Assembly (NCBI RefSeq): GCF_024380015.1
Contig: NZ_CP101508.1
Location: 1,984,902-2,048,901, forward strand
Reading direction: 5' to 3'
Origin: Photobacterium atrarenae
GTDB lineage: Bacteria; Pseudomonadota; Gammaproteobacteria; Enterobacterales; Vibrionaceae
DNA length: 64,000 nucleotides
In this document: positions 4,122-23,420 of the stretch, in pieces
How the letters are laid out: each line of letters opens with the position of its first letter
Position numbering within the stretch: the stretch's first letter is position 1
Program-made: the position numbers and the translations under genes
Notes under the pieces: model-generated
The model's input: only the letters and a program-made list of their open reading frames with translations
Databases searched by the model: none
Told to the model about the DNA's origin: nothing

Positions 4122-4129
4122 ACGGCCTC

Positions 4130-8026: not shown

Positions 8027-9367
8027 TCAATACCCCACCATGGACGGTAGCCACAACGACAGTTGCGGAAAGAATGCCACCAGGAACACACCAATCACCG
8101 AGGCAACGACGAACGGGTGGATCCGGGCGGTAATTTGCTCCACGCTTGAGCCGCCAATCCCTGACGCAACGAAGATGTTCTCACCAAGCGGCGGGGTGGC
8201 AAAACCAATCGATAAAGCACACACCACCACCACACCGACATGGGTCGGATCAGCCCCCAGCATATACATGATCGGCAGCAGCACCGGCACGATAATCATG
8301 ATCGCCGCCAGGGTCTCCATAAACATGCCGACAAACAGCAGCAGCATGATGGTCAGCGCCCAGACCAGGTACATATTCTCAGTCAGGCTGAGCAACGATT
8401 CCGCAACCACCACCGGGATCTGCTGCTCAATCAACAACCGACCAAACACGGTTGCAGCAAACAGGATCAGCAATACCCGCCCGGTGATCCAGGTTGTCGT
8501 GGTCAGCGACGTGAAAATACTCTTGACCGACAGCTCGCGATGGAGGAAAAAGCCAACAAACAGCGAGTAGAAGATTGCCACAATGGCCGATTCCGTCGGG
8601 GTGAACATCCCGCTGTAGATCCCGCCGAGGATCAGAAACGGCGCCAGAATCGACCAGGTTCCCCGCTTCACTGTTGCCTTGATATCTGACACCGACCAGG
8701 TTTCAGTCAGTCCTTTGTAACCGCGTTTTTTCGCGATCAGATAGTTGGTCAGGATCAGGGTAGAAGCCATCAGCAGCCCCGGGATCACCCCGGCAACAAA
8801 CAGTTTCGGGATCGACAGCGAAGCAAACTGGCCGTGCTGCGCGACCGCTTCCGGCGGCGGCATCAGGCCCATGGCTGAGATGCCGAATATCACAATCGGG
8901 ATCGACGGCGGAATAATAATCCCCAGCCCGCCGGATGCCGCGGTTACTGCCGACGCATAGCTGCGTTCATAGTCCCGCTTGACCATCGCCGGGACCATCA
9001 GCATTCCCACCGCCGCAGTCGTTGCCGGCCCGGAGCCGGAAATTGCACCGAAAAACAGACAGGCGAACACGGTTGCGGCGCCAAGTCCGCCGGTGACCGG
9101 CCCGGCCAGGCTTTCTGCAATATCCACCAGCCGTTTCGAAATCCCGGCTGCCTCCATCAGCGCCCCCGCCAGCACAAACGCCGGCAGGGCCATCAGCGGA
9201 AAGTTACCAACCGAGGTAAACGCAATTTGCACCAACGCAATCGGGTTCTTGTCCAGGATCAGATAAGCCGCCATGGATGCCCCGGCCAGCGAGACAGTGA
9301 TCGGCGCGCCTAAAATCAGCATCAGCAGAAAGCCGCCAAACAAAATCAGGGTTAAGTAATCTTCCAT
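8027..9367 (-). CDS. tauM: TRAP transporter large membrane subunit (DctM/TauM)
   Basis: 446 residues, about twelve hydrophobic segments, with DctM family hallmarks such as FGGFLLMLILGAPITVSLAG, GSGPATTAAVG and GMFMETLAAIMIIVPVLLP. It is the channel subunit of a Na+-driven tripartite transporter. A strong GGAGGAGG precedes its ATG. It sits between the small subunit gene (24 bases upstream) and the Cache gene. Taurine as substrate is inferred from the tauXY/xsc context; TauKLM is the known taurine TRAP system in other bacteria. Confidence 0.88.
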   Translation of the reverse strand: MEDYLTLILFGGFLLMLILGAPITVSLAGASMAAYLILDKNPIALVQIAFTSVGNFPLMALPAFVLAGALMEAAGISKRLVDIAESLAGPVTGGLGAATVFACLFFGAISGSGPATTAAVGMLMVPAMVKRDYERSYASAVTAASGGLGIIIPPSIPIVIFGISAMGLMPPPEAVAQHGQFASLSIPKLFVAGVIPGLLMASTLILTNYLIAKKRGYKGLTETWSVSDIKATVKRGTWSILAPFLILGGIYSGMFTPTESAIVAIFYSLFVGFFLHRELSVKSIFTSLTTTTWITGRVLLILFAATVFGRLLIEQQIPVVVAESLLSLTENMYLVWALTIMLLLFVGMFMETLAAIMIIVPVLLPIMYMLGADPTHVGVVVVCALSIGFATPPLGENIFVASGIGGSSVEQITARIHPFVVASVIGVFLVAFFPQLSLWLPSMVGY

Positions 9368-9391
9368 GATAATTTCCTCCTCCTTGGCCCG

Positions 9392-9955
9392 TTACTGCGC
9401 CGCCGCTTGGCGGCTCGCATGCTGCTGGCGCTGTTGCAGTTTTTTCAGCTGCAGGGTTTCCGGATCACTGGCCTCTTTGCCCAGGAACAGGCGCTCGTAG
9501 TTGTTCCACAGGATCCGGATGGTCATCAGGGAAAAGGCAATCGGCAGGATCAAATAGAAATACTTCATCGGGATCCCGGTCGTCTGTGACTTCCAGAACA
9601 GGTTCATTTTATTAAAAACAAAGTCATAGCTGAGATAGACAAAATAAAGATTGAACGCCACCCAAATCATGTCGGCGGACACTTCACAAACCGTGCGCAC
9701 CACCGGCGGAAAGAACTTAAAGTGAAAGCTGACCCGGTTATGGGCCGACATCTTGGCCGCAACCACGGCGCCCAGATAGGCGAACCAGACAAACATATAG
9801 GTTGCGACTTCATCGCCCCAGGGGATCGAGTATTGAAACAACTGACGAACCAGGATCTGAGTAAACAGCAGCAGAACAAACGCCGCCAGCAGTAAACAGC
9901 AGGTGTATTCTTCAATGTTATTCAGGTGCTTGCGCACTGTGTGCATTGCAGACAT
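9392..9955 (-). CDS. tauL: TRAP transporter small membrane subunit (DctQ/TauL)
   Basis: About 187 residues with four hydrophobic segments and the DctQ signature region (FTQILVRQLFQYSIPWGDEVATYMFVW split over helices 1-2). The longer in-frame start at 10015 is discounted because GGAGG stands just before the ATG at 9955. The C-terminus is a charged, Gln-rich tail (LKKLQQRQQHASRQAA). It pairs with TauM in the inner membrane. Confidence 0.87.
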   Translation of the reverse strand: MSAMHTVRKHLNNIEEYTCCLLLAAFVLLLFTQILVRQLFQYSIPWGDEVATYMFVWFAYLGAVVAAKMSAHNRVSFHFKFFPPVVRTVCEVSADMIWVAFNLYFVYLSYDFVFNKMNLFWKSQTTGIPMKYFYLILPIAFSLMTIRILWNNYERLFLGKEASDPETLQLKKLQQRQQHASRQAAAQ

Positions 9956-10029
9956 ATGGCCTCCGGAATAGACAACCGGCTGCCCGCCCGGTGTTACATC
10001 AGCGGCGGGCAGCACAGACAGCGGTTGGA

Positions 10030-11031
10030 TTAGCGCCCCAACACAGCCAACGCGGTATCGAGTTTTTCTTTGCCGCCGATGCTGGCATAGAATTTCGGCC
10101 AGACCGTCTCGGTCACTTTCTCAATCCAGGCCTGCTCGCCGTTGGCCGGATCGGTAAAGACCATCCCCTTGGCCGCCAGCTCATCGCGGATTTTCTGCTC
10201 GGTCGTCTGGAGGTAGTTAAAGCTGTATTCGGTCGCTTCTTTGCCAGCCGCCAGGATGGTTTGCTGCATCTGCGGCGATTGTGATTGGAAAATTGATTCA
10301 CTGACAATCAACGGCTCCAGCGAGAAGATGTAGCGAATATTGGTCACGTACTTCTGGACTTCGTTGAATTTCATCGCATGAATGGTGATATACGGATTGT
10401 CCTGGCCGTCGACCACGCCCTGTTGCAATCCAGTGAAGGTTTCAGACCAGGCCATCGGTGTCGGGTTCACGCCCCAGGCCTGATAGGCTGAGATCATGAT
10501 TTCATTGCGCGGCACACGGATCACCAAGCCTTTGAGATCCTCGGGAGATTTAACCGGACGTTTGGAGTTGGTCAACACCCGGAACCCGGAATAGGCCCAG
10601 CCGATAATGCGCACCCCGGCATCCCGGATAGTATTTTCCACCAGCTCCTGACCAATCTCGCCCTGGGTCAGCAACTTGGCTTCATCTGCGCTCTGAATCA
10701 CATAAGGCATGGTGAGCAGACCGACACTGGGTGAAAACGGCGTCACGTTATTAATCGCCAGCACAGAAAAGTCCAGCAGGCCAATCGCTGCATTGTTGAC
10801 CGTATCCTGCTCATTGCCGAGTTGCCCGTTGGGGAACAGATCCACCGTCATCTTGCCGTTGGTTTTCTTATCCAGCAGTTCGGCAAACTTACTCCCCATC
10901 TCCCACTGGGTCCCGCCGGCAGCATCCCCCAGCGCCATCTTGAAGTTCTTGGCCAGCGCTGCAGGCGCAGCAACAGCCAGGCTGACTGCCGTAAAAATTG
11001 GTAGAAGCTTATTTTTATTGAACATCATCAT
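10030..11031 (-). CDS. tauK: TRAP transporter substrate-binding protein (DctP/TauK)
   Basis: 333 residues with a Sec signal peptide ending AAPAALA. DctP-family landmarks follow: MGSKFAELLDKKTNGKMTVDLFPNGQLG, the ligand-contact Arg region in LVIRVPRNEIM, and GVVDGQDNPYI. It captures substrate in the periplasm for TauLM. Three tandem ATGs begin the gene (11031, 11028, 11025) behind AAGGG, so the exact start is ambiguous by two codons. Its ligand is inferred to be taurine (or a related sulfonate) from neighbours. Confidence 0.87.
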   Translation of the reverse strand: MMMFNKNKLLPIFTAVSLAVAAPAALAKNFKMALGDAAGGTQWEMGSKFAELLDKKTNGKMTVDLFPNGQLGNEQDTVNNAAIGLLDFSVLAINNVTPFSPSVGLLTMPYVIQSADEAKLLTQGEIGQELVENTIRDAGVRIIGWAYSGFRVLTNSKRPVKSPEDLKGLVIRVPRNEIMISAYQAWGVNPTPMAWSETFTGLQQGVVDGQDNPYITIHAMKFNEVQKYVTNIRYIFSLEPLIVSESIFQSQSPQMQQTILAAGKEATEYSFNYLQTTEQKIRDELAAKGMVFTDPANGEQAWIEKVTETVWPKFYASIGGKEKLDTALAVLGR

Positions 11032-11228: not shown

Positions 11229-12707
11229 TTACAACACTTCGTCTTTGAGGTGATACCAGCGATAAAGGAACCGTTGCCCGAACCGGCGGAACGGCGCGAA
11301 GGCTTCCGATTCCACCATTTCCCGGAGATTCGGGAACGGCAGTTTCGACTGGAAGATCGGTAAATCAAGCTGCTGGGTATCCCCGGCAATCCACTGGGCG
11401 AGTCGCTTGCCCGCTTGTGCCGAGTACATCACCCCGTTGCCACCGTAACCCAAGGCGTAGTAGATCGACTCGCTGGCATTGGGCTGGTAGATGCGCGGCA
11501 TCATGTCATGGCTGACATCAACCCACCCCCACCAGGAATAGTCGACCTGGATCCCATCCAGCGCCGGGAATTTGCGCACCAAATCGGCCTTGAGCATGGC
11601 TTCGTATTTCTGCTCCGGCGCCGCCCGGCCGGTGATCGCACTGCGGGTGCCGATCTGGACCCGGTTGTCCGGCAACAAGCGGTAGTAATGACGCAAGACC
11701 CGGGTATCGGTGATCACCTGATGGGTGTGGAACTGACAGGCTGCCAGCTCCGCTTCGGTCAGCGGCCTGGTCACCATGGAGTTTGACAGAATTGGCAGCA
11801 TGCGGTTTTTCAGCTCACGATGCAGCCCCTGCGAGGTATAGCCACCGGTGGCAACCCCAACGGCGCGGGCTTTGACCACGCCACCCGGCGTTTGGAGGTA
11901 GTGAACCCCGTTCTTGGTTTCCCAGCCCGTCACCGGACTGGCCGGATGCACCGTTGCGCCTAGGGCGCGGGCCTTCTTGAGATAGCCAAAGGCCAGCTTA
12001 CCGGCATGGATCCCAATGCCTTCCGGCTCATGCATCGCCCCGCAGGCTTCCTGATCGCCGACAAACTGGTTCTTCACCGTCTCGGCATCGAGGATCTGGG
12101 CGTCATAGTGAAAGGTGTCGCGCAGCAGCTTGGCTTCTTTTTCCAGCGCCGGCATGACCCGCTCCCGGTGAGCAACGTACAGATGACCACCGGGCTGCGG
12201 CTCACAGTCAATATCCTTGATAAGCTCCTTGAACGTCGCCATGCCCTCCAGGCACTCTTCATGCATTTTCAGCGCGGTATCCAGTCCCCAGCGTTCAATC
12301 CATTGCGAGCGCTTCAAACGCCCGGAAGCACACTGGGCCTGCCCACCGTTCCGGGTACTGCAACCCCAGCTGGCCCGGTTGGCTTCCAGCACCGTCGCTT
12401 TGATGCCATATTTTTCCGCCAGGAAAATCGCCGCCGTCAGGCCGGTAAATCCGGAGCCGATAATCGCCACATCGACATCCACATCGCAGCTGATCGGCCC
12501 GTCATCGGCAGGCGGCTCTCCCGCCGTTCCGACCCAGTAGGTCGGCGCATATTCAGCGCCCTGACCCGGCGTGGCCTGCACCAGCGGATCGTAAGCCGGA
12601 TCGTACGAAGAACACGCTTGCGTTGCCCGCTGTTGGGCGCCCGCTGAGGCTGATGCAGGTCGGACGACATCCTGTTGTTTTTCTTCCGCCAGTACACTCA
12701 TGCTCAA
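11229..12707 (-). CDS. tauY: Taurine dehydrogenase large subunit-like FAD oxidoreductase (TauY)
   Basis: 492 residues of the DadA/glycine-oxidase-like FAD family. The dinucleotide motif IIGSGFTGLTAAIFLAE starts near residue 82, preceded by an unusual 70-residue N-terminal extension. SWGCSTRNGGQ and the C-terminal YALGYGGNGVMYSAQAGKRLA flavin segment are also family features. General annotation would be gamma-glutamylputrescine oxidase-like, but position directly after a SnoaL-like small protein and before a TRAP transporter, with xsc, pta and tauE in the locus, supports TauY: oxidative deamination of taurine to sulfoacetaldehyde. No taurine:pyruvate aminotransferase is seen, consistent with that route. 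AAGGAG precedes the ATG. Confidence 0.78.
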   Translation of the reverse strand: MSMSVLAEEKQQDVVRPASASAGAQQRATQACSSYDPAYDPLVQATPGQGAEYAPTYWVGTAGEPPADDGPISCDVDVDVAIIGSGFTGLTAAIFLAEKYGIKATVLEANRASWGCSTRNGGQAQCASGRLKRSQWIERWGLDTALKMHEECLEGMATFKELIKDIDCEPQPGGHLYVAHRERVMPALEKEAKLLRDTFHYDAQILDAETVKNQFVGDQEACGAMHEPEGIGIHAGKLAFGYLKKARALGATVHPASPVTGWETKNGVHYLQTPGGVVKARAVGVATGGYTSQGLHRELKNRMLPILSNSMVTRPLTEAELAACQFHTHQVITDTRVLRHYYRLLPDNRVQIGTRSAITGRAAPEQKYEAMLKADLVRKFPALDGIQVDYSWWGWVDVSHDMMPRIYQPNASESIYYALGYGGNGVMYSAQAGKRLAQWIAGDTQQLDLPIFQSKLPFPNLREMVESEAFAPFRRFGQRFLYRWYHLKDEVL

Positions 12708-12736: not shown

Positions 12737-13159
12737 TTAGCGATTCTCGCCGGTTACCTGCGCCGGACGATCCTTGCGGAAAGCGTTTTTCACCTGGATT
12801 TTTCCGTCCTTCAGCGTGAACACATCCACCATCCGCGCTTCAATGCGACTGCCGTCTGGCTTGGTCGCGCAAAAGGTCGACTCACTGACTGCCCGATTGC
12901 CGCAGACAAAATGCTCACCGTTGAGCCAGGCTGCATCAGGAAATGTTTTCCAGACCTGCTGGAAACTCTCCCGCACCGCATCACGTCCGGTAAACGAACT
13001 CCCCTGCAAACCAGGACCGGCCGCGGTATGGAAAGTGCAGTCATCGGTCATAAAAGTCATCAGCGCGTCTATATCATGATTGTTCCACGCCTCGCTGAAC
13101 GCCTGTAAAAAAGCGACGCTGACTTCATCTCTGACCATTTCATCCATTTGTGCGCTCAT
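12737..13159 (-). CDS. tauX: Taurine dehydrogenase small subunit-like SnoaL/NTF2-fold protein (TauX)
   Basis: 140 residues with the NTF2/SnoaL pattern: helix FLQAFSEAWNNHDIDALMTFMTDDCTFHTA, then GRDAVRESFQQVW and strands ending VDVFTLKDGKIQVKNAFRK. It is the first gene of the operon and ends 29 bases before tauY. TauX small subunits of taurine dehydrogenase have this size and genetic position, so I assign it on context; sequence alone would only give nuclear transport factor 2-like. GAAGGGA precedes the ATG. Confidence 0.72.
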   Translation of the reverse strand: MSAQMDEMVRDEVSVAFLQAFSEAWNNHDIDALMTFMTDDCTFHTAAGPGLQGSSFTGRDAVRESFQQVWKTFPDAAWLNGEHFVCGNRAVSESTFCATKPDGSRIEARMVDVFTLKDGKIQVKNAFRKDRPAQVTGENR

Positions 13160-13623: not shown

Positions 13624-14574
13624 TTAGTCAAAGTCAAAGTCGGCAGTGTACTGCCGCCGGTACTGGCGCAACCCAGATGGCGGGTGGCCGGAAGATATGG
13701 TGCCTGTCAGGGCTGATGCCACCGCCCGGTAGGCCAAGGCCTTGGGAAGTTTCCCCGAGCAACCGCGCAGCTCGCCTTCCATCACATGCGGCGGATTACT
13801 CACCTCCCCCGGTTCAGACTTTGCTGCGCCGATCCCGGCACCGGCTGACTCACCCGTGAGCCAGGCATTTAAATGCTGGCACAGGCCATTCAGTCCGGGA
13901 TACACGGTGCGCTCCGTGATCCCGAAGGTCGCCAGATCCGCCAGCAGTTTCGACTTCATCGCCGGCAGCAGCGGAATTTCCAGCAACCGATCCCGACCAT
14001 GTAGCTCCTGCTCCAGCGGTACAAAGCCCGCTCCCCGAGCAGCTTCCGGATACGCCTCAGTCGTCAGCGCCGGATGGATGGAGTACCAACTGCGCTGGGC
14101 GGTCGCCTCCGGCCGGGCCGCGAGCGGTGAAAACACCCGGGTCTGGCTGATCGCCAGCGGGTCGGTGGCAAAATCGACGTCGTCGAGCCCGTCCGCACGC
14201 AGCAGATAAACATAAGGCTCGGCCGCCCCCCGCTGACAGGCAAACCACAGCGCAATCAGCGGATTTTGGCTCCACGCCAGCAACCGGGTTTTCATGCCGA
14301 ACTGCTGCGCCTGTGACAACAGATGCCAGTCACACACCCGGTCCCCACCGGCGGCGGCTCCCTTCGGGCTAAACTCGCCGTATTGCTGAAACATCGCCAG
14401 CATATGGCGCTCGACCGCCGTCGAGATCGGTCGGTTATTCCGGGCAATCGGCGGCAGCAAGGCCCGACGACGATTGGGCTGGCCGCGAAACAGGATCAGT
14501 TCGCTATCCGCCGTCAGCTCTCGAACGGCTGCTAAATAACCCGAAACGGAGCCAATATAAGTTGATGTTTGCAT
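13624..14574 (-). CDS. FRG-domain protein in the tau locus
   Basis: 316 residues. The N-terminal FRG domain has the eponymous motif (ILFRGQPNR, about residues 26-34), then a His/Gln/Thr core (WHLLSQAQQFGMKTRLLAWSQNPLIALWFAC) typical of the family, and the segment DLATFGITERTVYPGL near residue 225. The C-terminal 80 residues are poorly conserved and likely disordered. FRG proteins have no established reaction; some occur in defence loci. Here it is the third gene behind xsc and a UPF0324 exporter, 12 bases after the latter, with its own AAGGAG. Whether it serves sulfonate metabolism is unknown. Confidence 0.78.
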   Translation of the reverse strand: MQTSTYIGSVSGYLAAVRELTADSELILFRGQPNRRRALLPPIARNNRPISTAVERHMLAMFQQYGEFSPKGAAAGGDRVCDWHLLSQAQQFGMKTRLLAWSQNPLIALWFACQRGAAEPYVYLLRADGLDDVDFATDPLAISQTRVFSPLAARPEATAQRSWYSIHPALTTEAYPEAARGAGFVPLEQELHGRDRLLEIPLLPAMKSKLLADLATFGITERTVYPGLNGLCQHLNAWLTGESAGAGIGAAKSEPGEVSNPPHVMEGELRGCSGKLPKALAYRAVASALTGTISSGHPPSGLRQYRRQYTADFDFD

Positions 14575-14586
14575 AAAAACTCCTTG

Positions 14587-15630
14587 TTAAGCCGCAGACC
14601 ACAGACGGACCAGAAAGACCACGGACAACATATAGCCGGCGATAAACAGCGCATTGCCCAACAACAGCGCAATCGGCTGCCAGCCCAGCTCCGCCAGCTT
14701 TTCGAACGATGTTTTCACGCCGAGTGCGGCAATCGAAATCACCAGGCACCATTTGGACAGATCCGAACTCAGCGTAATTACCTCAGACGGCAACCATCCC
14801 AGGCTGTTCACAATCACCAGGGCCACAAACACCATCAGAAAACCCGGTACCAGCGGTTGCTTCGCAGCGCCAGCCCCACCGGCGGCCACGCGATCCTGAT
14901 GAAACAACACCATCAGCACCACCACGACCGGCATCAGCATCGCGACCCGGAACATTTTTGCCAGCGTCGCGGCATCCCCGACGTCGGTGGAGATCATAAA
15001 CCCGGCCCCGACCACCTGCGCGACATCATGGATCGCCCCGCCGAGAAACAGCCCGGCTTCCGCCGTCGCCAAGCCGGTTGCCGAGACCACCAGCGGATAG
15101 AGCACCATGGCTGCGGTCGAAAATGCCGCCACGCCAATGGCCGTCAGCAAGGTAAAGTGCTCATTGTCGCGGCTCTGGGGCAAGGTGGCTGAAATCGCCA
15201 TCGCGGCGGAAATCCCGCAGATCCCGGTCGCACCACCGGAGAGCAGGCCGAGCATCGGCGGCAACCGGAGCACGCGCGCGAGCAGCAAGCTGAACCCAAT
15301 CGTCAGCCCGACCGCCCCGGCCAGGGCGAATACACCCACAGTGCCGATGGCATGTATGTCGCTGACGGCGATCCGAACCCCGAGCAGCGCCACCCCGATC
15401 CGCACCAGTTTCTTGGCGGCCACTTCAATCCCGGGCAAACATTTCCCGTTGTCAGCCAGAAAGTGAAACGCCATGCCGATCAGTAAGGCGTACAAGAATT
15501 TCGGTCCACCATACTGTCCGGAGACAAAAGAAGCGGCAGCAGCAATCACCATGCACAGCATCAGGCCCGGCACCAACTGCCCCAGCGCACCAAAGGTGTT
15601 GCGCGGTTGACTGAGTGTATTTGTCGCCAT
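14587..15630 (-). CDS. UPF0324/YeiH-family putative sulfur-oxyanion exporter (TauZ/SuyZ-like)
   Basis: About 347 residues and some ten hydrophobic segments, with UPF0324 (COG2855) features: VRIGVALLGVRIAVSDIHAIG, LSGGATGICGISAAMAISA, and GGAIHDVAQVVGAGF. Members next to sulfonate-degradation genes have been proposed to export sulfate or sulfite. I start at 15630 (MATNTLSQ), behind AAGGGA, rather than the in-frame codon at 15684, which falls in the terminator-like hairpin after xsc. The locus also has a TauE-type exporter, so the division of labour is unclear. Confidence 0.82.
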   Translation of the reverse strand: MATNTLSQPRNTFGALGQLVPGLMLCMVIAAAASFVSGQYGGPKFLYALLIGMAFHFLADNGKCLPGIEVAAKKLVRIGVALLGVRIAVSDIHAIGTVGVFALAGAVGLTIGFSLLLARVLRLPPMLGLLSGGATGICGISAAMAISATLPQSRDNEHFTLLTAIGVAAFSTAAMVLYPLVVSATGLATAEAGLFLGGAIHDVAQVVGAGFMISTDVGDAATLAKMFRVAMLMPVVVVLMVLFHQDRVAAGGAGAAKQPLVPGFLMVFVALVIVNSLGWLPSEVITLSSDLSKWCLVISIAALGVKTSFEKLAELGWQPIALLLGNALFIAGYMLSVVFLVRLWSAA

Positions 15631-15650
15631 CAGAAATCCCTTCTTGGCAG

Positions 15651-15723
15651 GAAAAAAAGCCTGGCTCCATCTCACCCGCACCACCAGATGTCACACGGTG
15701 AGCATCGGGTGCCGGAGCCAGGC
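15651..15723 (-). terminator. Terminator or attenuator between xsc and the UPF0324 gene
   Basis: The arms GCCTGGCTCC and GGAGCCAGGC are a perfect 10-bp pair enclosing 45 bases, and in the minus direction the stem is followed by TTTTTTTCC. This is a credible intrinsic terminator that would lower expression of the exporter and FRG genes relative to xsc. Confidence 0.65.
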
Positions 15724-15740: not shown

Positions 15741-17552
15741 TCAGACGTAGTCTTTGTATTTATCCAGGTAACGGACCGGCTTGGAGAGTGCATCGCGGCG
15801 GAACGGGTCGCCCAGCTCCTGGGTACACATGATCTCAATCACCGTGGTTTTCCCTTCGTTCATCTGCATATCAATCGCTTTTTGCAGCGTCGGGCCGACA
15901 TCTTCCAGACGGTCAACCGTGATCCCTTCCGCGCCCATCGCCCGGGCAATTTCGGCAAAGCTCTGGTTATCCAGCTCACCGGCCACGAAGCGGCGGTTGT
16001 AGAAGTCGACCTGGTTCTTCTTCTCCGCGCCCCACTGGCGGTTGTGGAACACCACCGCAGTCACCGGAATGTTATGACGAACACAGGTCATGGTTTCCAT
16101 CAGGCTCATGCCCCAGGCACCGTCACCGGCATAGGAAATCGCCGGGCGATGCGGTGCCGCGGCCTTGGCGCCGATAATCGTCGGGAAGGCATAACCACAG
16201 TTACCGAAGCTCATCGCGGCAAAGAAACTGCGTGGTTTTTCAAACCGCAGGTAGCTGTTGGCAATCGAGTTGATGTTACCGATATCGGTCGAGACCATGA
16301 CATCGTCCGGCATCGCTTTTTCCAGCTCACGCAGTACCTGGCGCGGGTGCAGATATTCGCCGCCGGAAAAAGGTTTCTCCTGGGCATTTTTGTCGATCAT
16401 ATCGAGGCTGAACTGGTCACGTTCGTGGGTCCACTCATCCAGCTCTTTCTCCCAGATCTCTTTCTCAGCCTGAACCTTGGTAAAGCGATCATCTTTGGTC
16501 GCATCACACGCCAGCGTGCGGCCTGCCAGACGCTCGCTCAGGGCCACCGCTGCCGCCTTGGCGTCACCGCAGATCCCGACCGAGATTTTCTTCACCAGAC
16601 CCAGCATCTTATGGTCAGCATCAATTTGAATGATCTTGGCGTCTTTCGGCCAGTAATCCATCCCGTGCTGCGGCAACGTGCCGAATGGTCCCAGGCGGGA
16701 ACCCAGCGCAATCACCACATCGGCCTGGGAGATCAGTTTCATCGCCGCTTTCGAACCCTGGTAGCCCAGCGGACCGCACCACAGCGGGTGACTGGCCGGG
16801 AACGAGTCATTGTGCAGGTAGCTGTTGACCACCGGCGCGCCCAGACGCTCCGCCAGTGCCTTACACTCTTCGACCGCATCGCCCATCACCACGCCGCCAC
16901 CGGAAATAATGACCGGGAACTTCGCCTCGGCCAGCAGGTCGGCCGCATCATTCAGGCTCTGCTCGCCACCTGGGCCGCGATCCAGACGCGCCGGTTTTGG
17001 AATTTCACAGGTAATTTCGCCATAAAAGTAATCTCGGGGAATGTTCAGCTGGGTCGGCCCCATCTCGCTCATCGCGCGGTCAAAACAGCGACCCGTGTAT
17101 TCCGCCATCCGGCCCGGGTGAGTCACATGTCCCTGATACTTGGTGAACTCCTGGAACATCGGCAGCTGGTTACACTCCTGGAAGCCCCCCAAGCCCATGG
17201 TGTTGGTCCCGGTTTCCGGGGTCACAATCACCACCGGGCTGTGTGCCCAGTACGCCGCCGCAATTGCGGTGACACAGTTACTGATCCCCGGACCGTTTTG
17301 TCCAATCACCACCCCGTGGTTCCCGGATACCCGGGAATAGCCGTCCGCCATGTGCGCAGCACCCTGCTCATGGACCACCGGAATCAGGCGAATGCCGGCC
17401 GGAGCAAAAATATCCATCGCATCCATAAATGCAGAGCCCATGATGCCGAACATATCCGTCACGCCATTGGCCACCATGGTTTCAACAAACGCCTCTGACG
17501 GCGTCATCTTGGTCGGGCCGGTTACCACGCTACGTGCTTCTTGCTCACTCAT
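15741..17552 (-). CDS. xsc: Sulfoacetaldehyde acetyltransferase (Xsc)
   Basis: 603 residues, the expected length of Xsc, a thiamin-diphosphate enzyme that converts sulfoacetaldehyde plus phosphate into acetyl phosphate and sulfite in the cytosol. The N-terminal pyrimidine-binding half (SEAFVETMVANGVTDMFGIMGSAF) contains the FGIMGSAFMDAMD stretch typical of Xsc, and the ThDP motif is seen as GDGAWGMSLMETM through FHNRQWGAEKKNQ. AAGGAG precedes the ATG. It is the key enzyme that labels this locus as C2-sulfonate catabolism and is first in a unit with the UPF0324 and FRG genes. Confidence 0.95.
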   Translation of the reverse strand: MSEQEARSVVTGPTKMTPSEAFVETMVANGVTDMFGIMGSAFMDAMDIFAPAGIRLIPVVHEQGAAHMADGYSRVSGNHGVVIGQNGPGISNCVTAIAAAYWAHSPVVIVTPETGTNTMGLGGFQECNQLPMFQEFTKYQGHVTHPGRMAEYTGRCFDRAMSEMGPTQLNIPRDYFYGEITCEIPKPARLDRGPGGEQSLNDAADLLAEAKFPVIISGGGVVMGDAVEECKALAERLGAPVVNSYLHNDSFPASHPLWCGPLGYQGSKAAMKLISQADVVIALGSRLGPFGTLPQHGMDYWPKDAKIIQIDADHKMLGLVKKISVGICGDAKAAAVALSERLAGRTLACDATKDDRFTKVQAEKEIWEKELDEWTHERDQFSLDMIDKNAQEKPFSGGEYLHPRQVLRELEKAMPDDVMVSTDIGNINSIANSYLRFEKPRSFFAAMSFGNCGYAFPTIIGAKAAAPHRPAISYAGDGAWGMSLMETMTCVRHNIPVTAVVFHNRQWGAEKKNQVDFYNRRFVAGELDNQSFAEIARAMGAEGITVDRLEDVGPTLQKAIDMQMNEGKTTVIEIMCTQELGDPFRRDALSKPVRYLDKYKDYV

Positions 17553-17836
17553 ATCCTTTCTCCTTGATGATGGGACACTGAATCCTTAAAAAGTGGAACC
17601 AAACGTCTCGTTATTGAAATTACAGTTTTAAGCTAGACGGTGGTTTTTTAATCGTCAATAAAATTTAATTAATCGATATGAAATATTCCGAAAAACGATA
17701 CTCATGCAACATTTTTGAAGATTGTACGTTTTGATTTGCGGATCACTCGTTAACAATGACAGTCAGATTTTTGTCCGAATCGCGATCCGGATCCTGATCC
17801 GGCGCAGCAGCGAACGACAGTAAAAAGGAGCAGATC
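17553..17836. promoter_or_regulatory. Divergent xsc / cobS-like promoter region with candidate operator
   Basis: 284 bases between divergent genes, AT-rich in the centre. On the minus strand 17680-17697 reads CGTTTTTCGGAATATTTC, sharing TTYGGAATWWWT with sites upstream of tauX (13436-13456) and pta (22480-22499). The position, about 135 bases from xsc and 140 from the cobS-like gene, suits a regulator acting on both. Confidence 0.5.
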
Positions 17837-18817
17837 ATGATGGAAATGGCAGCGAACCAGCCAGATATTGAAGTGTCCGTGCGCGAGGTGTTCGGAATTG
17901 ACAGCGATCTTCGGGTCCCGGCCTTTTCGGTTCGCGACGATCATGTGCCGGAGATCGATCCCGCTTATCGTTTCAATCCGGAAGTGACCCTGGCGATCCT
18001 GGCTGGGTTTGCCCAGGATCGCCGGACCCTGATCCAGGGCATGCACGGCACCGGCAAATCCACCCATATCGAACAGGTTGCCGCCCGGCTGAACTGGCCC
18101 TGCGTGCGGGTCAACCTGGACGGCCATCTCAGTCGGCTGGATTTAGTCGGGAAAGATACAATTACGCTGCGCAACGGCCAGCAAGTGACCGAGTTCCAGG
18201 AAGGAATTATTCCCTGGTCACTGCAGCGTCCGGTCGCCCTGATCTTCGATGAATACGATGCCGGGCGTCCGGATGTGATGTTTGTGATCCAGCGGATCCT
18301 GGAGCGGGACGGCAAATTTACCCTGCTGGATCAGAACCGGGTGATCCAGCCCCACCCGGCCTTCCGCTTGTTTGCCACCGCCAATACCGTCGGGCTGGGC
18401 AACCTGTCCGGGTTGTATCACGGCACCCAGGTGCTCAATCATGCACAAATCGACCGCTGGAATATCGTCGCGACCCTGAACTACCTCCCGGCCGAAGAAG
18501 AATTGGCCATCGTGCTGGCCCGGGTGCCGGAAAAAAACAGCGACGCCGGCCGCGCGCTGCTGCGCAAAATGATTGCAGTCGCGGAGCTGACCCGGAACGG
18601 CTTTGCCGCCGGGGATATCTCAATCCTGATGTCGCCGCGCACCGTGATCACCTGGGCAGAAAACTGCACCATCTTCCGCAATCCGGCGCTGGCCTTTCGC
18701 TTCTCGTTTCTCAACAAATGCGATGAAGCCGAGCGGCCGCTGATCGCTGAATATTTCCAGCGCTGCTTTAATCAGGAGCTGGAAGAATCCTGGGCTCACC
18801 AAATGGAGCTGAGTTAA
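17837..18817 (+). CDS. CobS-like AAA+ ATPase in the tau locus
   Basis: 326 residues. Walker A GMHGTGKS at about 68-75 and Walker B LIFDEYD at about 135-141, with the CobS-characteristic middle part (VNLDGHLSRLDLVGKD, FATANTVGLGNLSGLYHGT) and arginine-finger region (AQIDRW). True CobS works with CobT and CobN to insert cobalt into hydrogenobyrinate diamide. No cobN or corrin gene is nearby, and the gene overlaps the CobT-like gene by one base. It is likelier a MoxR-type remodelling ATPase for a tau enzyme; that is inference. AAGGAG is 6 bases before the ATG. Confidence 0.85.
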   Translation: MMEMAANQPDIEVSVREVFGIDSDLRVPAFSVRDDHVPEIDPAYRFNPEVTLAILAGFAQDRRTLIQGMHGTGKSTHIEQVAARLNWPCVRVNLDGHLSRLDLVGKDTITLRNGQQVTEFQEGIIPWSLQRPVALIFDEYDAGRPDVMFVIQRILERDGKFTLLDQNRVIQPHPAFRLFATANTVGLGNLSGLYHGTQVLNHAQIDRWNIVATLNYLPAEEELAIVLARVPEKNSDAGRALLRKMIAVAELTRNGFAAGDISILMSPRTVITWAENCTIFRNPALAFRFSFLNKCDEAERPLIAEYFQRCFNQELEESWAHQMELS

Positions 18818-20553
18818 TGAAAGCGCACTCCCGCCAGCAGCAGAAAACGGTCGAGCTCTGTGCCGCCAGTGCAAGGGCCATCAGCCGACAACCAAACCTT
18901 CACTTTCGCGGTCGCCAGCTCTATCGGGGCAACACGCCACAGCCGAGTCCGGCGGTTCACGTGCGCGAGCATGACGCTGAGCGCCCGTATGCCGCCAGTC
19001 GCGGCCGGGCCGATGCGATAGCCCTGCGCCTGCGCCACTCCGATTCGCAGCTGCACCAGCAACAAGCGCCGACCGCCCCGATTGCCCGGCTGATTTTCGA
19101 TCTGCTGGAACAATGCCGGATTGAGTCACAGGCACCGGTCCATCTGCCGGGTGCTGGTGCCAACATCAACGCCAATTTCGAACACTGGGCCAGCCACTAT
19201 TTCCACACCGGGCTGGCGGAAAATCATATCGGCAACCTGATGCTGACCCTGATTTTAATCGTCCGCGCCCGGATCAACGCCGCGCCGGTGCCGGAATACG
19301 CCGAGACTGCCATTGAAGCGACCCGGGCTGCCATCGTGCCCGTGATTGGCCATGCACTGGCTGAACTCAAAGCCTGCCGTCACGATCAGGCCGCTTTTGC
19401 CCGGCCAGCCCGCCAACTGGCAGAAACCGTCTGCGCCATGATCGAAGCCGAGCTGGCCGACCAGCAAGAATCCGGGGACGCAGAGCAATCGGACAACGCC
19501 CTGGCCGCATTCCCGCTGTTATTGGAGATGGAAGAAGAAGGCTCTGAAACGGAGGCCATTGCCACGGCCAAAACCGGCCGCAGCGCGACTTTTAGCAAAC
19601 ATCATCAGCAATATCACATCTATACCACCGAGTTTGATCAGGAAGTCGCCGCCGCCTCCCTGATCCGGCCTGCACTTCTCACCGAGCTGAGAGCACAGCT
19701 GGATCAGCAAATCCACCAGCAGGGGATCAATGTCCGGGAGCTGGCACGCAAGCTGGCCGCAGCCCTGAACCCGCCACAACAACACAGCTGGCTGTTCGGC
19801 CAGGAAGAAGGCCGGATCGACGGCAGACGACTGAGCCAGCTCGTCAGCTCGCCGACTGAACGCCGCCTGTTTTACCAGGATCACCACCAGCCGACCCCGG
19901 ACGCGGTGGTCAGCCTCCTGATCGACTGCTCCGGCTCGATGCGCGAGCATATTGATCAAGTCGCGATCATCGTCGATGTGATGGTCAAAGCGCTGGGTAT
20001 GGCCGGGATCACCAGTGAAGTCCTGGGGTTCTCGACCGCAACCTGGAACGGTGGTCGGGCCCATCAGCAGTGGCTGAGCCGGGGGCGACCCGCACAGCCG
20101 GGCCGACTCAATGAAACCTGCCACCTGATGTTCAAACCGGCCGAGCAAGGCTGGCGCCAGAGCCGAAAATCAATCGCTGCGTTGCTCAAAGCTGACTTAT
20201 TCAAAGAAGGCGTTGATGGCGAAGCCGTCACCTGGGCTTGCCAGCGTCTGCGGCTGAGGGCGGAAGGTCAGCGTTATCTGCTGGTGATCTCGGACGGCTG
20301 TCCGATGGATACTGCCACCAACTTAACCAATGATCCCTTCTATCTGGATAATCATCTCAAAGCGGTGGTGGCGCAGGAAACCCATCGAGGTGGGATCACC
20401 ATTCTCGGACTCGGGGTCGGTTTGGATCTCAGCCCTTACTATCCGCGCAACCTGGCGATGGCAGGCGCCACCGCCGTGGATAACCGCCTGATGACCGAGA
20501 TCGTTGAGCTGTTCGCATCATCTCGTGGCAAAAACTCAGGGACCCGGCGCTAG
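18817..20553 (+). CDS. CobT-like VWA-domain protein, partner of the CobS-like ATPase
   Basis: 578 residues. The N-terminal half is helical with an acidic linker around residues 215-245; the C-terminal half is a CobT-type VWA domain with MIDAS motif DCSGSM (about 369-374), then GFSTATWNGG, PGRLNETCH, the DGEAVTWACQRL helix and VISDGCPMD. The order and spacing match cobaltochelatase CobT closely. The start ATG overlaps the stop of the CobS-like gene (TAATG), so the two are translationally coupled and surely form a complex. Without CobN, the client is unknown. Convergent with tauE, only 16 bases apart. Confidence 0.85.
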   Translation: MKAHSRQQQKTVELCAASARAISRQPNLHFRGRQLYRGNTPQPSPAVHVREHDAERPYAASRGRADAIALRLRHSDSQLHQQQAPTAPIARLIFDLLEQCRIESQAPVHLPGAGANINANFEHWASHYFHTGLAENHIGNLMLTLILIVRARINAAPVPEYAETAIEATRAAIVPVIGHALAELKACRHDQAAFARPARQLAETVCAMIEAELADQQESGDAEQSDNALAAFPLLLEMEEEGSETEAIATAKTGRSATFSKHHQQYHIYTTEFDQEVAAASLIRPALLTELRAQLDQQIHQQGINVRELARKLAAALNPPQQHSWLFGQEEGRIDGRRLSQLVSSPTERRLFYQDHHQPTPDAVVSLLIDCSGSMREHIDQVAIIVDVMVKALGMAGITSEVLGFSTATWNGGRAHQQWLSRGRPAQPGRLNETCHLMFKPAEQGWRQSRKSIAALLKADLFKEGVDGEAVTWACQRLRLRAEGQRYLLVISDGCPMDTATNLTNDPFYLDNHLKAVVAQETHRGGITILGLGVGLDLSPYYPRNLAMAGATAVDNRLMTEIVELFASSRGKNSGTRR

Positions 20554-20569: not shown

Positions 20570-21328
20570 CTAAAACAGCGCCACCAGCGCATTTGCAATC
20601 AGGTACAGGCCAATCAGCATCAACAGCCCAAACACCATCCGCCGCATCGCTGCTGCACTGAGCGGCGGCGGAAAGCGCCTTGCCAGTATGGTGCTGATCA
20701 TCACCACCGGTACGGCAATCCCGGCCAGCAGCACAATATCCATGCTCAGTTGGCCCTGTACCCCAATCAACAAACTGCGGGTGGCAGACGTGAAGGCAAA
20801 ACTGATCAGCAACATATTGCGAATGGTTGTCAGCTCAAACGGCTGGCGGTAAAACTGATAGATCAGCGGCGGTCCGGCCATGCCGAACAGCCCGCCGGTC
20901 AGCCCGGAGCCAAACCCACTGACCACAAAACTCGGATGGCCGGAACGTACGGTTTTCTGCGCCGGTCGCAACAGGAAGTTAACCGCACTGTAGACAATCA
21001 TCCCGCCCAGCAAGCCCTGTAACAAGCTTGTGGCCGACTGGCTGAGCAGCTCCAGTAACCAGACGCCGGCCCCGATGCCGGGTAACACGCCCAGCACCAC
21101 GGCTGACACCGCGCACCAGTCCATCTGCTTCGCTGCGCCCGGCAGTGCCACCGCACAGTTCACCAAAGTGACTAAGCTCACCACCGCAGCAATCACCGCG
21201 ACCGTAGTCAGATCCAGGGCACTGGTGGCCCCCACCACAATGATCCCCAGGCCAAAGCCGGTCACGGTCTGAAAGTATGTGCCGACCATAATGATGGCGA
21301 GCAAAATCAATAAGGTTTCTGTGCTCAT
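20570..21328 (-). CDS. tauE: TauE/SafE-family (TSUP) sulfite exporter
   Basis: About 252 residues with seven or eight hydrophobic segments. The DUF81/TSUP pattern is visible in FQTVTGFGLGIIVVG near the N-terminus and its repeat GFGSGLTGGLFGMAGPPLIYQF in the second half. TauE exports the sulfite that Xsc releases. An in-frame start at 21385 lies inside pta; I prefer the ATG at 21328 because AGGAGAAGAG precedes it. It is the second gene after pta, 28 bases downstream. Confidence 0.88.
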   Translation of the reverse strand: MSTETLLILLAIIMVGTYFQTVTGFGLGIIVVGATSALDLTTVAVIAAVVSLVTLVNCAVALPGAAKQMDWCAVSAVVLGVLPGIGAGVWLLELLSQSATSLLQGLLGGMIVYSAVNFLLRPAQKTVRSGHPSFVVSGFGSGLTGGLFGMAGPPLIYQFYRQPFELTTIRNMLLISFAFTSATRSLLIGVQGQLSMDIVLLAGIAVPVVMISTILARRFPPPLSAAAMRRMVFGLLMLIGLYLIANALVALF

Positions 21329-21356
21329 CGCTTCTCTTCTCCTGAGCGTATCGGGT

Positions 21357-22433
21357 TCAACAGGGATCGCTTTGTGTCGCCGCAACGATAGACGGCGCTG
21401 CGGGTTTCTGGTGGGGTGCTTGCTGGTGGTGGAATGCTTGTTGCTGCGCCTGAACCGCCGTCACCGCAATCACGTGATAAATATCCTGCTCGCTGCAACC
21501 ACGGGAGAGATCATTCGCCGGTTTAGCCAGTCCCTGCAACAATGGGCCGATGGCAACAGCACGGCCGACACGCTCGGCGAGCTTATAACCGATATTGCCC
21601 GCCTCCAGGTTAGGAAAAATCAGCACATTGGATTGTCCTTTCACCTGCGAGTCCGGCAATTTACGCGCTGCGATATCCTGAACAATCGCCGCATCAAGCT
21701 GAACATCACCATCGATGGCCAGCTCAGGCCGGCGGGATTTCACCAGTGCGGAGGCCGCAACCACTTTATCGACCGCCGCATGACGGGCACTGCCACTGGT
21801 CGAGAACGACAGCATCGCCACCCGGGGCGTTTCCATCAGCAGCTGGCGGGCACTTTCGGCGGCCGAGAGCGCAATATCGGCCAGCTCCTCAGCGCTGGGC
21901 TCAACCACCAGCCCGCAATCGGAAAAGATTAGGCCGCCTTTCAGATCATGAAACGGTTCACACAACATCATCAGGAAGAAACTGGACACCAACCGGCAGT
22001 CCGGTGCCAGCCCGATCACCTGAATCGCACTGCGAACCACATTGGCGGTGGTCTGCACCGCCCCCGCCACCGAGCCGTCGGCGGCGCCATAGCGAACCAG
22101 CAGGTTGGCATAACAGAGCGGGTCCAGCACGGCTTGCTTTGCCTGCGTCCGGGTCATCCCTTTACCAGCCCGCAGCGCGAACAGCATATCGGTCAGCGCC
22201 GGCCGCAAGGGGGACGTCGCCGGGTCGATCAGGATGCAGGACGCAATACACGTGCCTTCCTCCTCGGCCCGGGCCTGGATCTGCGGCGTATTGCCGACCA
22301 GGATCACCTCGGCAATCCCGTCCTGCGCGGCCTTGGCGGCGGCACGAAGCACCCTGGTATCATCCCCTTCACTCAGTACGATCCGCACCGGACGCTGCTT
22401 TGCCTGTTCAATAATACGTTCAATAGCCTTCAT
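21357..22433 (-). CDS. pta: Phosphate acetyltransferase, short form (Pta)
   Basis: 358 residues, only the PTA_PTB catalytic domain, as is usual for Pta in sulfonate loci, in contrast to the roughly 700-residue housekeeping enzyme. Motifs: IVLSEGDDTRVLRAA at the N-terminus, GAVQTTANVVRSAIQVIG, FSTSGSARH, and NVLIFPNLEAGNIGYKL near the end. It converts the acetyl phosphate made by Xsc to acetyl-CoA. First gene of a pta-tauE unit, divergent from the IclR regulator. The last ten residues are a poorly conserved tail. Confidence 0.93.
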   Translation of the reverse strand: MKAIERIIEQAKQRPVRIVLSEGDDTRVLRAAAKAAQDGIAEVILVGNTPQIQARAEEEGTCIASCILIDPATSPLRPALTDMLFALRAGKGMTRTQAKQAVLDPLCYANLLVRYGAADGSVAGAVQTTANVVRSAIQVIGLAPDCRLVSSFFLMMLCEPFHDLKGGLIFSDCGLVVEPSAEELADIALSAAESARQLLMETPRVAMLSFSTSGSARHAAVDKVVAASALVKSRRPELAIDGDVQLDAAIVQDIAARKLPDSQVKGQSNVLIFPNLEAGNIGYKLAERVGRAVAIGPLLQGLAKPANDLSRGCSEQDIYHVIAVTAVQAQQQAFHHQQAPHQKPAAPSIVAATQSDPC

Positions 22434-22610: not shown

Positions 22611-23420
22611 ATGACGAGTACAGTGAAAGAAACAACCGATCTTGCCCCCGTGCGTATCGAGGGAGACACGCCGACCCTTCGCCTGTTCTCACTGCTGGAA
22701 GTCATTGCAGAGAAGGACGAATTTTTCTCGCTGCAGAAACTGGTGGAAGAGACCGGGCTGCCGAAGCCGACTCTGCACCGGATGCTGCAACAACTCGAAA
22801 CCGCCGGGATTATCCAGCGTGACGGGGATGAACGGCACTACAGCACCGGTGTCCGGCTGCGGCGTCTGGCGGAAAAGCTGTTGCTGAACAGCACCACCCA
22901 CAGTGCCCGGCATGCCGTGCTGGCCCAGCTGAAAGAGGAAGTCGGCGAAAGCTGTAACCTCACCGCGCTCTCCGGCGGCGAAGTCATTTATGTCGACCGG
23001 GTCGAAACCGAGGCCCCGCTGCGGTTTTATCTCCACCCCGGCTCCCGGGTACCGGTCCACTGCTCCGCCTCCGGCAAACTGTTTCTGGCCAGTATGAGCA
23101 GCTCGCAGCGACGCCGACTGCTGAGTAATGTCGAGCTGACCCAGTACACGGAAAAAACCATCACCGATTTCGACGCGCTGGAAACTGAGCTTGATAATGT
23201 CAAACGCACCGGCTATGCCATCGATAACGAAGAATTCCTGCCGGGCCTGTTCTGTGTCGCCGTTCTGGTGCCGGTCCCATCCGGGCGCTCGAACCTGGGT
23301 ATTGCGATCCAGGCACCCATCATGCGATTAAAACCCGAGCAGGCGCTGCACTTTCTGCCGGCGCTACAGCGCGCCGCAGAAGCCCTGGCCAGAATTGAAG
23401 CGGAAAGCTGGCCGGAATAA
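22611..23420 (+). CDS. IclR-family transcriptional regulator of the tau locus
   Basis: 269 residues. An N-terminal winged helix-turn-helix (LFSLLEVIAEKDEFFSLQKLVEETGLPKPTLHRMLQQLE split about residues 25-65) is followed by the IclR effector domain (VIYVDRVETEAPLRFYLHPGSRVPVHCSASGKLFLA). Position divergent from pta, next to a perfect inverted repeat, makes it the obvious local regulator, probably responding to taurine or sulfoacetaldehyde. This differs from the GntR/MocR-type TauR found with many taurine clusters. The ribosome-binding site is weak; the start at the first ATG is chosen because it leaves a normal-length N-terminus. Confidence 0.88.
   Translation: MTSTVKETTDLAPVRIEGDTPTLRLFSLLEVIAEKDEFFSLQKLVEETGLPKPTLHRMLQQLETAGIIQRDGDERHYSTGVRLRRLAEKLLLNSTTHSARHAVLAQLKEEVGESCNLTALSGGEVIYVDRVETEAPLRFYLHPGSRVPVHCSASGKLFLASMSSSQRRRLLSNVELTQYTEKTITDFDALETELDNVKRTGYAIDNEEFLPGLFCVAVLVPVPSGRSNLGIAIQAPIMRLKPEQALHFLPALQRAAEALARIEAESWPE

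Follow-up and report, generated by a model that had tools for sequence, protein, structure and literature searches.

The window, a 64-kb stretch of Photobacterium atrarenae DNA, carries a cobS-like AAA+ ATPase gene and a cobT-like VWA gene that overlap by a single base according to their open reading frame coordinates and diverge from xsc, which encodes the thiamine diphosphate (ThDP)-dependent sulfoacetaldehyde acetyltransferase (Table 1). A sequence-only reading had described the two as overlapping genes of CobS and CobT type lying between xsc and tauE/pta, and profile searches confirm both the families and the motifs, with tauE and then pta, both on the reverse strand, following next after cobT. 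The intergenic region separating xsc from cobS comprises a TATTCCGAAAA-GATA element that, in a by-eye comparison of seven loci, recurs in some congeners. Further along the reverse strand lie two genes whose products we take to be TauX and TauY; on a Caballeronia plasmid, the gene at the TauX-like position beside tauY is annotated as a nuclear transport factor 2 family protein, and the counterpart of the TauY-like protein as an FAD-binding oxidoreductase.

Table 1. Position, strand and basis of assignment of the features at the xsc-cobST locus (window coordinates).
Feature	Position	Strand	Basis
TRAP transporter genes, whole block	8027..11031	-	TIGR00786, TIGR00787, NF037995
DctM (TRAP transporter)	8027-9367	-	NCBIfam matches of the TRAP block
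TRAP small subunit (putative)	9392-10015	-	position
DctP (TRAP transporter)	10030-11031	-	NCBIfam matches of the TRAP block
TauY-like FAD-dependent oxidoreductase (taurine dehydrogenase large subunit)	11229..12707	-	amino-acid-oxidase-type NCBIfam matches, below cut-off
TauX-like small protein (NTF2-like)	12737..13159	-	annotation of the counterpart on a Caballeronia plasmid
YeiH/PF03601-family putative exporter, downstream of xsc	14587..15684	-	profile matches
xsc, sulfoacetaldehyde acetyltransferase (ThDP enzyme), candidate client	15741..17552	-	TIGR03457, 1084 bits
Divergent xsc/cobS intergenic region, 284 bp	17553..17836	.	sequence comparison
cobS-like AAA+ ATPase, xsc-associated type	17837..18817	+	326 aa; TIGR01650, PF12556, AAA_5
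cobT-like VWA protein, xsc-associated type	18817..20553	+	578 aa; PF06213, PF11775, TIGR01651
TauE/SafE-type sulfite exporter	20570..21385	-	PF01925
pta, phosphate acetyltransferase	21357..22433	-	TIGR00651, PF01515
IclR-family regulator	22611..23420	+	PF01614, PF09339

The CobS and CobT proteins

The window CobS matches TIGR01650 with 527 bits (526.9) over residues 5-321 of 326, and CobT matches TIGR01651 with 328 bits (328.1), neither reaching the corresponding NCBI equivalog cut-off (558.55 and 759.05, respectively); CobS stays under its cut-off in all 150 genomes of the window's family. The GMHGTGKS and LIFDEYD motifs of CobS and the MIDAS motif DCSGSM of CobT, at residue 370, are all found in the pair, and the Walker A and B motifs are retained across the xsc-type CobS set, leaving the motor motifs intact. 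With dN/dS values of 0.05 for cobS, compared with a second genome (G111), and 0.10 for cobT, both genes are intact and under purifying selection.

CobS is the best family for the AAA+ protein, rather than CbbQ or NorQ, both of which are distant relatives only (E 4e-7 to 2e-6 and E 5e-6, respectively). The xsc-type CobT proteins show a median length of 574 residues versus 623 for canonical ones, ca. 50 residues shorter, and a less conserved VWA domain, with DCSGSM in 58 of 69 versus DNSGSM in 37 of the 38 comparison proteins, counts from which nine stop-interrupted translations had been removed (CobS L138 and L061; CobT L080, L186, L097, L089, L088, L141, and L063). A phage origin of CobT was considered and dropped, the phage match being single and distant.

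Association with Xsc

In the window's family, full-length CobS and a close Xsc occur in an identical set of 30 out of 150 genomes, so that the co-occurrence which the sequence-only reading had put forward as a check is complete in this sample. In a second family, CobS is present in 74 of 79 xsc-positive genomes versus 1 of 80 xsc-negative ones, and in 1 of 47 when the xsc-negative genomes are restricted to genera also holding xsc-positive members; the lone carrier (G904) is a 4957-bp contig bearing pta-tauE-cobT-cobS. The xsc-positive sample comprises 80 of the 119 available genomes (79 of 118 in the second family, plus G649), picked by genus before any CobS result, and the xsc-negative sample 80 of 181; 20 xsc-negative genomes are listed by name, and the rest are classed as such by their absence from the 118 listed positives. 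The Fisher values computed for this association make no correction for relatedness among the genomes.

All 75 CobS genes of the xsc-positive sample lie on the same contig as xsc, 66 at no more than 6 kb and 9 at 15-29 kb, taking the nearer copy in genomes with two Xsc; among xsc-group loci retrieved by CobS alone, which provide the fairer figure, Xsc is near in 28 of 34. The locus is also present in Comamonas testosteroni ATCC 11996, a species of which another strain, KF-1, grows on taurine (PMC3746432). With the two genes next to xsc, the locus is organised like those of the MoxR-type AAA+/VWA helpers (CbbQO, NorQD), xsc being the candidate client gene. The linkage of CobS to Xsc could reflect a shared mobile island.

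The CobS tree, comprising 118 rows after near-identical removal and a length filter (from 138), displays one branch with 99% SH-aLRT support that parts 64 xsc-group CobS from 54 others, alphaproteobacterial and other orphan, where the xsc label was assigned manually to L172, L180, and L182 (being on a fragment that lacks xsc, or having xsc 22-29 kb off on one contig) and L033, L101, and L107, with a broken or cut xsc, received another label. The window CobS is thus separated by this branch from the alphaproteobacterial CobS taken as canonical. In the Xsc tree (58 rows after near-identical removal, from 82), all 49 CobST-positive rows, including L138 despite a stop in its CobS reading, fall inside one 53-row clade, and none of the seven rows outside has CobS. 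The Xsc proteins accompanied by CobST form one clade with a few losses, namely G191, G332, and G983, searched as whole genomes, and Rhodococcus DK17, of which the plasmid was searched. Because of these CobS-less members, the helper would not be strictly required; moreover, the trees understate the losses, since many CobST-positive Xsc rows stem from loci retrieved for their CobS. In G983, a molybdopterin oxidoreductase resembling sulfite dehydrogenase adjoins xsc and was considered as a stand-in for CobST.

Comparison of 16 Xsc rows discloses no obvious N- or C-terminal tail specific to CobST-linked proteins. Residue 525 alone differs in three of three CobST-less clade members and in all seven outgroup rows, a weak signal given the 370 conserved columns screened.

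Alternative clients and the absence of CobN

The sequence-only reading had suggested Xsc or TauXY as the enzyme that the pair may activate or help to assemble. For Xsc, genomic support is strong, in the form of co-occurrence, clade specificity, and linkage, both within the two large families and outside them; TauXY is disfavored, the pair and TauXY each occurring without the other. Four other readings were weighed. In the likeliest of them, the pair acts on something else encoded at the sulfonate locus, for example Pta, a sulfite exporter, the regulator of the IclR family, or a metalloenzyme not recognised as such, and is merely co-inherited with xsc. Within 9 kb of cobS in 80 xsc-group loci, the families queried are Xsc in 69, IclR relatives in 53, any Pta in 53, TauY in 47, and TauE in 29, in a table where some loci were retrieved around xsc, inflating the Xsc count, and from which 15 CobS loci in other settings (L053, L057-L067, L112, L120, and L189) and L138 are omitted; none of Xsc, TauY, Pta, or IclR lies within any of 44 alphaproteobacterial-type CobS loci. 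The frequency of IclR and Pta, together with the transfer of such islands as blocks, favors the co-inheritance reading, which we nevertheless consider rather unlikely. Pta comprises two different types, and was dropped as a client on this ground and on its presence near cobS in only those 53 loci; TauE is near in a minority; Xsc is the commonest queried neighbour after CobT; CobST lies on the xsc contig even in the nine cases at 15-29 kb; and in two drafts, G414 (L052) and G196 (L055, a long branch of unsure placement), an xsc-group CobS is found with xsc on another contig.

That the pair acts on taurine dehydrogenase TauXY is very unlikely. TauY accompanies CobS in the window and in over half of the loci counted above, but five genomes with xsc and an xsc-group CobS lack a close TauY (G031, G016, a 95% complete draft, G292, G196, and G414). 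Conversely, G882, G905, and G1084 have TauY (65-66% identity) and TauX (62-65%) beside xsc and no CobS, and TauY at 50-56% occurs without CobS in G191 and G332; TauXY was consequently dropped.

A further reading, judged scarcely probable, is that alphaproteobacterial-type Xsc uses canonical CobST in trans, which would make CobST a helper of Xsc at large and the xsc group just a lineage that has shed its B12 role. It draws on a class-wide sample in which seven genomes hold an Xsc-like protein at 45-48% identity, six of them with CobS, of which three (G242, G339, and G363) are without CobN. Against this reading, the Xsc-like gene and CobS are on separate contigs in all six, which are drafts, and eight genomes with Xsc at 64-75% identity have no CobS at all (G204, G257, G374, G460, G854, G882, G905, and G1084). 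The CobS tree includes five of these six CobS, none of them within the xsc group, and the remodeller model set out below offers no explanation for them.

Least probable, and very unlikely, is that the pair simply drives a cobaltochelatase in B12 synthesis, partnered by CobN or an unrecognised large subunit: the pair does show 66-71% (CobS) and 28-41% (CobT, partly over short stretches) identity to alphaproteobacterial CobST loci and closely matches, in sequence, the solved cobaltochelatase subunits CobS and CobT (9ujv and 9uka), and CobN is present in 48 of the 80 genomes of the xsc-positive sample, but the presence of the pair follows xsc and not CobN, the xsc-linked CobS lies on a separate branch under the equivalog cut-off, and the absence of CobN largely refutes this role. 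The earlier statement that no cobN accompanies the pair in the 64 kb extends to the entire genome, since a profile search with PF02514 of all 5.4 Mb, rated 100% complete, returned no match, and the CobS family model matched once only (E<=0.001). No cobalamin genes were seen among the window genes scanned. CobN is likewise absent from 29 of the 30 CobS-positive genomes of the window's family, the window genome included, the ground on which B12 synthesis was rejected as the role of the pair, and from 28 of the 75 CobS-positive genomes of the xsc-positive sample; a ChlI-type AAA+ gene adjoins cobN in four of six CobN loci with scanned flanks.

Proposed role of the pair

The reading we favor, and consider probable, is that the pair represents a distinct CobST subfamily acting outside cobaltochelatase as an ATP-driven remodeller of one subgroup of Xsc, whether as its activase or as its maturase. 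The observations behind it comprise (i) intact motor and MIDAS motifs, (ii) the missing CobN, (iii) the co-occurrence and linkage with Xsc, (iv) the confinement to one Xsc clade, and (v) the divergence of CobT. Genomic association makes Xsc the probable client, with the biochemical step being putative. Counting against this reading are the CobS-less members of the Xsc clade, the possible mobile island, the class-wide sample, where CobS accompanies Xsc of at least 64% identity in only 5 of 11 genomes (the window genome included), the CobS found with the 45-48% Xsc-like proteins, and the CobN of 48 of the 80 xsc-positive genomes. Compared to CobNST, the pair belongs to the same two protein families with conserved AAA+ and MIDAS motifs, but differs in the lack of CobN from its genome, its sub-equivalog scores, the separate branch of CobS, and the shorter CobT with a less conserved VWA domain.

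MoxR/VWA pairs act as enzyme helpers, as described in passages of two papers (PMC9976466, PMC13036017), the first of which ties NorQ/NorD to a single client subtype, being required by cNOR and not by qNOR. NorQ/NorD thus resembles the proposed system as an AAA+/VWA pair dedicated to one client subtype, but its client is a membrane metalloenzyme and NorQ is distant from the window CobS. CbbQ/CbbO, the AAA+/VWA activase of Rubisco, likewise consists of an AAA+ and a VWA protein tied to the metabolic enzyme served and provides the template for a reactivation mechanism; the client is Rubisco rather than a ThDP enzyme, and the activity is demonstrated for CbbQ/CbbO and predicted for the window pair. 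Among the matches listed in a search of the open-access literature, which leaves most subscription papers outside its scope, none links CobST to Xsc, taurine, or sulfoacetaldehyde; a Ruegeria genome annotation paper gives cobS and taurine genes separately.

In the Xsc reaction, sulfite is set free close to the enzyme's thiamine diphosphate. In the proposed remodeller, CobS would assemble an AAA+ ring that the CobT VWA domain would couple to the client, presumably by contacting Xsc, the client being the Xsc subgroup of beta- and gammaproteobacteria plus at least one Streptomyces. Two versions of its action can be envisaged. In the reactivation version, which we prefer tentatively as a possibility, sulfite species would destroy thiamine and CobST would open stalled or damaged Xsc sites, allowing cofactor exchange as CbbQO does on inhibited Rubisco. 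Degradation of thiamine by metabisulfite is described in a passage of one paper (PMC11206890). Thiazole-synthase genes near xsc are rare (three loci and Rhodococcus), so they lend little genomic support to the idea of thiamine damage and, being too few, were discarded as evidence for it. In the maturation version, judged nearly as likely as reactivation, CobST would open newly made Xsc for Mg-ThDP loading, comparable to NorQD and iron in cNOR. A broader scenario, speculative and unlikely as a whole, is that CobST-type motors have been recruited repeatedly away from B12, to Xsc in a widely transferred lineage, to urease on a Pandoraea plasmid, and to AurF-like diiron proteins in small genomes, with the Xsc motor repairing ThDP sites attacked by the sulfite that Xsc itself forms; Xsc would then be, to our knowledge, the first known case of a thiamine enzyme with an activase.

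It is a recognised puzzle that the small and medium subunits of chelatases can occur with no large subunit, a point made for ChlI/ChlD in PMC9227772; here, such an orphan pair has a nameable client and a wide distribution, and is probably an ATP-driven helper of Xsc, a role not known for a CobST motor. If the proposal is true, "cobalt chelatase" labels in sulfonate degraders, such as that of CobT on the Caballeronia plasmid, would be wrong, AAA+/VWA machines would count a ThDP enzyme among their clients besides Rubisco and nitric oxide reductase, and the breakdown of taurine and isethionate in many beta- and gammaproteobacteria would include an overlooked ATP-dependent step.

The gene pair and its locus

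The two genes recognized by the sequence-only reading, a CobS-type AAA+ ATPase and a CobT-type VWA protein, are real; both open reading frames lie at the positions assigned to them and match the CobS and CobT families, with scores below the NCBI equivalog cut-offs in both cases. The genes overlap by one base, cobS is divergent from xsc (sulfoacetaldehyde acetyltransferase) with 284 bp in between, and the low dN/dS relative to genome G111 (0.05 for cobS, 0.10 for cobT) shows that the pair is maintained; the value for xsc is 0.01. At E≤0.001, CobS is matched just once in the window's genome, and both proteins align with the solved CobS and CobT structures.

The genes around cobST encode Xsc, a YeiH-type exporter, TauE, Pta, an IclR regulator, a TauY-like oxidoreductase, a small TauX-like protein and a TRAP transporter; the TauX and TauY names and the assignment to a taurine pathway follow the taurine literature. 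An annotated Caballeronia plasmid carries xsc, pta, IclR genes, the CobST pair, an FAD oxidoreductase and an NTF2-like protein. In addition, an FRG-domain gene evolves far faster than the adjoining genes, and a recurrent element in the xsc-cobS gap is a possible regulator site.

Coordinates of features in the window and in loci (L) cut from other genomes (G) or records
Feature	Location	Strand	Description
cobS	window 17837-18817	+	326 aa; TIGR01650 match over almost full length, PF12556
cobT	window 18817-20553	+	578 aa; PF06213 and PF11775 matches
FRG-domain gene	window 13624-14574	-	within taurine locus; dN/dS about 0.2; 22-75% identity among relatives
xsc-cobS intergenic element	window 17553-17836		roughly GATA then TATTCCGAAAA then GATA, some congeneric loci
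cytochrome bd-type oxidase pair	window 3123-5497	-	short CydA- and CydB-like proteins
second cobST pair	L053:1645-5325 (G414)		non-xsc-type; adjoins B12-binding protein
molybdopterin and iron-sulfur subunits	L171:12013-16793 (G983)		resemble sulfite dehydrogenase; adjoin xsc
plasmid cobS-cobT	L189:4362-11820		directly after ureG in urease cluster
cobST with adjoining protein family	L063:6016-9964		family member AurF-like (diiron) by Pfam
cobST with adjoining protein family	L065:6065-10003		
cobST with adjoining protein family	L067:7346-11729		

The Walker A motif G-x-H-G-[TS]-G-K-S is present in 75 of 77 xsc-type CobS proteins, and the four most frequent Walker B forms, all D-E-Y-D, account for 67 of the 77; the sensor and arginine-finger labels on CobS are our own assignment. 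In the VWA region of CobT (residues 361-510) the mean top-residue frequency is 0.60-0.71 in the xsc set versus 0.83-0.94 in the comparison set, a gap partly due to the xsc set covering more phyla. This region shows residues of its own around 454-465, with DCSGSM in 58/69 xsc-type proteins versus DNSGSM in 37/38 comparison proteins. A retained motor with a diverged adaptor fits a change of client.

Co-occurrence with Xsc

CobS model matches (E≤0.001) occur in 51 of the 150 genomes sampled from the window's family, but are full length in only 30, which score at least 459 bits, against less than 100 bits for the remaining 21. The 30 full-length cases are the same 30 genomes that encode a close Xsc (87% or more), so that the co-occurrence looked for in related genomes is complete. 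CobS, CobT and Xsc are all present in the 29 family loci beyond the window, including one (L033, from G081) where xsc, cobT and transporter genes alike are broken, by sequencing error or joint decay.

In a second family, Burkholderiaceae by inference, Xsc is found in 118/299 genomes and CobS in 74 of the 79 xsc-positive genomes examined (75/80 with G649, from another family). Only 1 of 80 xsc-negative genomes carries CobS (1/47 within genera also having xsc-positive genomes), on a contig of 4957 bp with cobS, cobT, tauE and pta, so short that xsc may sit past its end. CobS and Xsc share a contig in 75/75 cases, 66 within 6 kb and the others 15-29 kb apart. Of 10 plasmid records whose Xsc reaches at least 80%, 7 include CobS, and the other three are Rhodococcus plasmids with the same xsc. 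The link is weaker in the class-wide sample, with CobS in 5 of the 11 genomes whose Xsc reaches at least 64%, counting the window's. Shared islands inflate counts of co-occurrence.

Within 9 kb, the 80 CobS-group loci contain Xsc (69), any Pta (53), an IclR relative (53), TauY (47), a TRAP binding protein (34), TauE (29) and an isethionate-dehydrogenase-like GMC oxidoreductase (15), all absent from the 44 alphaproteobacterial-type CobS loci; where at least 8.5 kb is available on both sides (n=57), Xsc occurs in 52 and TauY in 41. For L173-L175, from three genomes measuring 2.1-2.4 Mb, xsc and cobST are the only queried genes found by tblastn; in L173, Pfam also matches an exporter of the TauE family and binding proteins of the TctC type. 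Judged from these gene contexts, Xsc is the best-supported client of CobST. The earlier proposal of a helper for Xsc or TauXY is supported for Xsc, the commonest neighbour among those counted above, and disfavoured for TauXY, as the pair occurs in genomes without a close TauY and TauXY occurs with Xsc from outside the clade described below and without CobS. Six of the seven genomes with a remote Xsc-like protein at 45-48% have CobS, on another contig, and such proteins might also use CobST in trans.

Phylogeny and relation to cobaltochelatase

The nearest named relatives of the window CobS belong to Aromatoleum, Azoarcus, Cupriavidus, Burkholderia, Paraburkholderia, Pandoraea, Comamonas, Marinobacterium, Pseudomonas and a Streptomyces, and xsc is present in 28 of their 34 loci in the xsc group, the CobS branch with xsc-linked members. 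Loci without it display, within the sequence examined, tauXY and TRAP genes (L086), TRAP genes (L084, L098, L105), only TauE-family genes (L081) or only an IclR relative (L088). In the CobS tree (118 rows), a branch with SH-aLRT 99 sets 54 sequences, of alphaproteobacterial and further orphan pairs, apart from a group of 64 that consists of (i) the named relatives' loci, (ii) the window's family, (iii) Burkholderiaceae-type loci, (iv) L052 and L055, long branches from genomes with xsc on a different contig, and (v) L112, an unexplained row at the base of the group. Every CobST carrier in the Xsc tree falls in a single 53-row clade (SH-aLRT 99.9), CobS being found in 0/7 rows beyond it, and the CobST label changes 4 times in total, where shuffled labels give about 10. 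Both trees come from quick searches, and their midpoint roots serve only for drawing. Clade members without CobST (G191, G332, G983 and a Rhodococcus plasmid) show that the pair is dispensable somewhere, and the tree understates its losses because many CobST-positive rows were fetched for holding CobS. G983, one of these few, is the genome with sulfite-dehydrogenase-like genes.

The window pair resembles cobaltochelatase in the protein families of CobS and CobT, but CobN, family scores and tree position all speak against its being one, and this role is rejected. A genome-wide search, as the sequence-only reading had advised, found no CobN in the window's genome. CobN is missing in 29/30 family genomes with CobS and Xsc (present in G097), and among the other class-wide genomes with both (G196, G292, G373, G414) it occurs only in G292; G414 also carries the second cobST pair. 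In the second-family set together with G649, CobN occurs in 48/80 xsc-positive genomes, 28/75 CobS-positive genomes lack it, and G854 has CobN without CobS. Eight CobN loci were taken with 1.5 kb flanks and neighbours scanned in six: a ChlI-type AAA+ gene adjoins cobN in four (L161, L162, L163, L165), and none was found in the scanned stretches of L159 and L164. CobST appears INDEPENDENCE from CobN, the CobN of at least some xsc-positive genomes probably having its own motor.

The pair of Pandoraea oxalativorans plasmid pPO70-1 (L189) is a further CobST outside a B12 setting. Besides, one protein family adjoins cobST in L063, L065 and L067. The three source genomes all lack CobN, and two measure 1.2-1.3 Mb.

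Possible action on Xsc

No published link of CobST to Xsc, taurine or sulfoacetaldehyde occurs among the open-access matches listed. The CobST of Xsc loci would work like known AAA+/VWA enzyme helpers. In NorQD, a finger of the VWA protein reportedly reaches into the pore of its AAA+ partner, and the proposal is that turnover of ATP twists the client for metal insertion (PMC13036017, PMC9976466); inhibited Rubisco is reported to be freed by CbbQO. By analogy, CobST may remodel Xsc as these systems do their clients.

Xsc produces sulfite beside ThDP. Together with the degradation of thiamine by metabisulfite, described in PMC11206890, this makes exchange of the ThDP cofactor in Xsc an attractive candidate purpose for CobST; loading of Xsc with Mg-ThDP would be about as likely.
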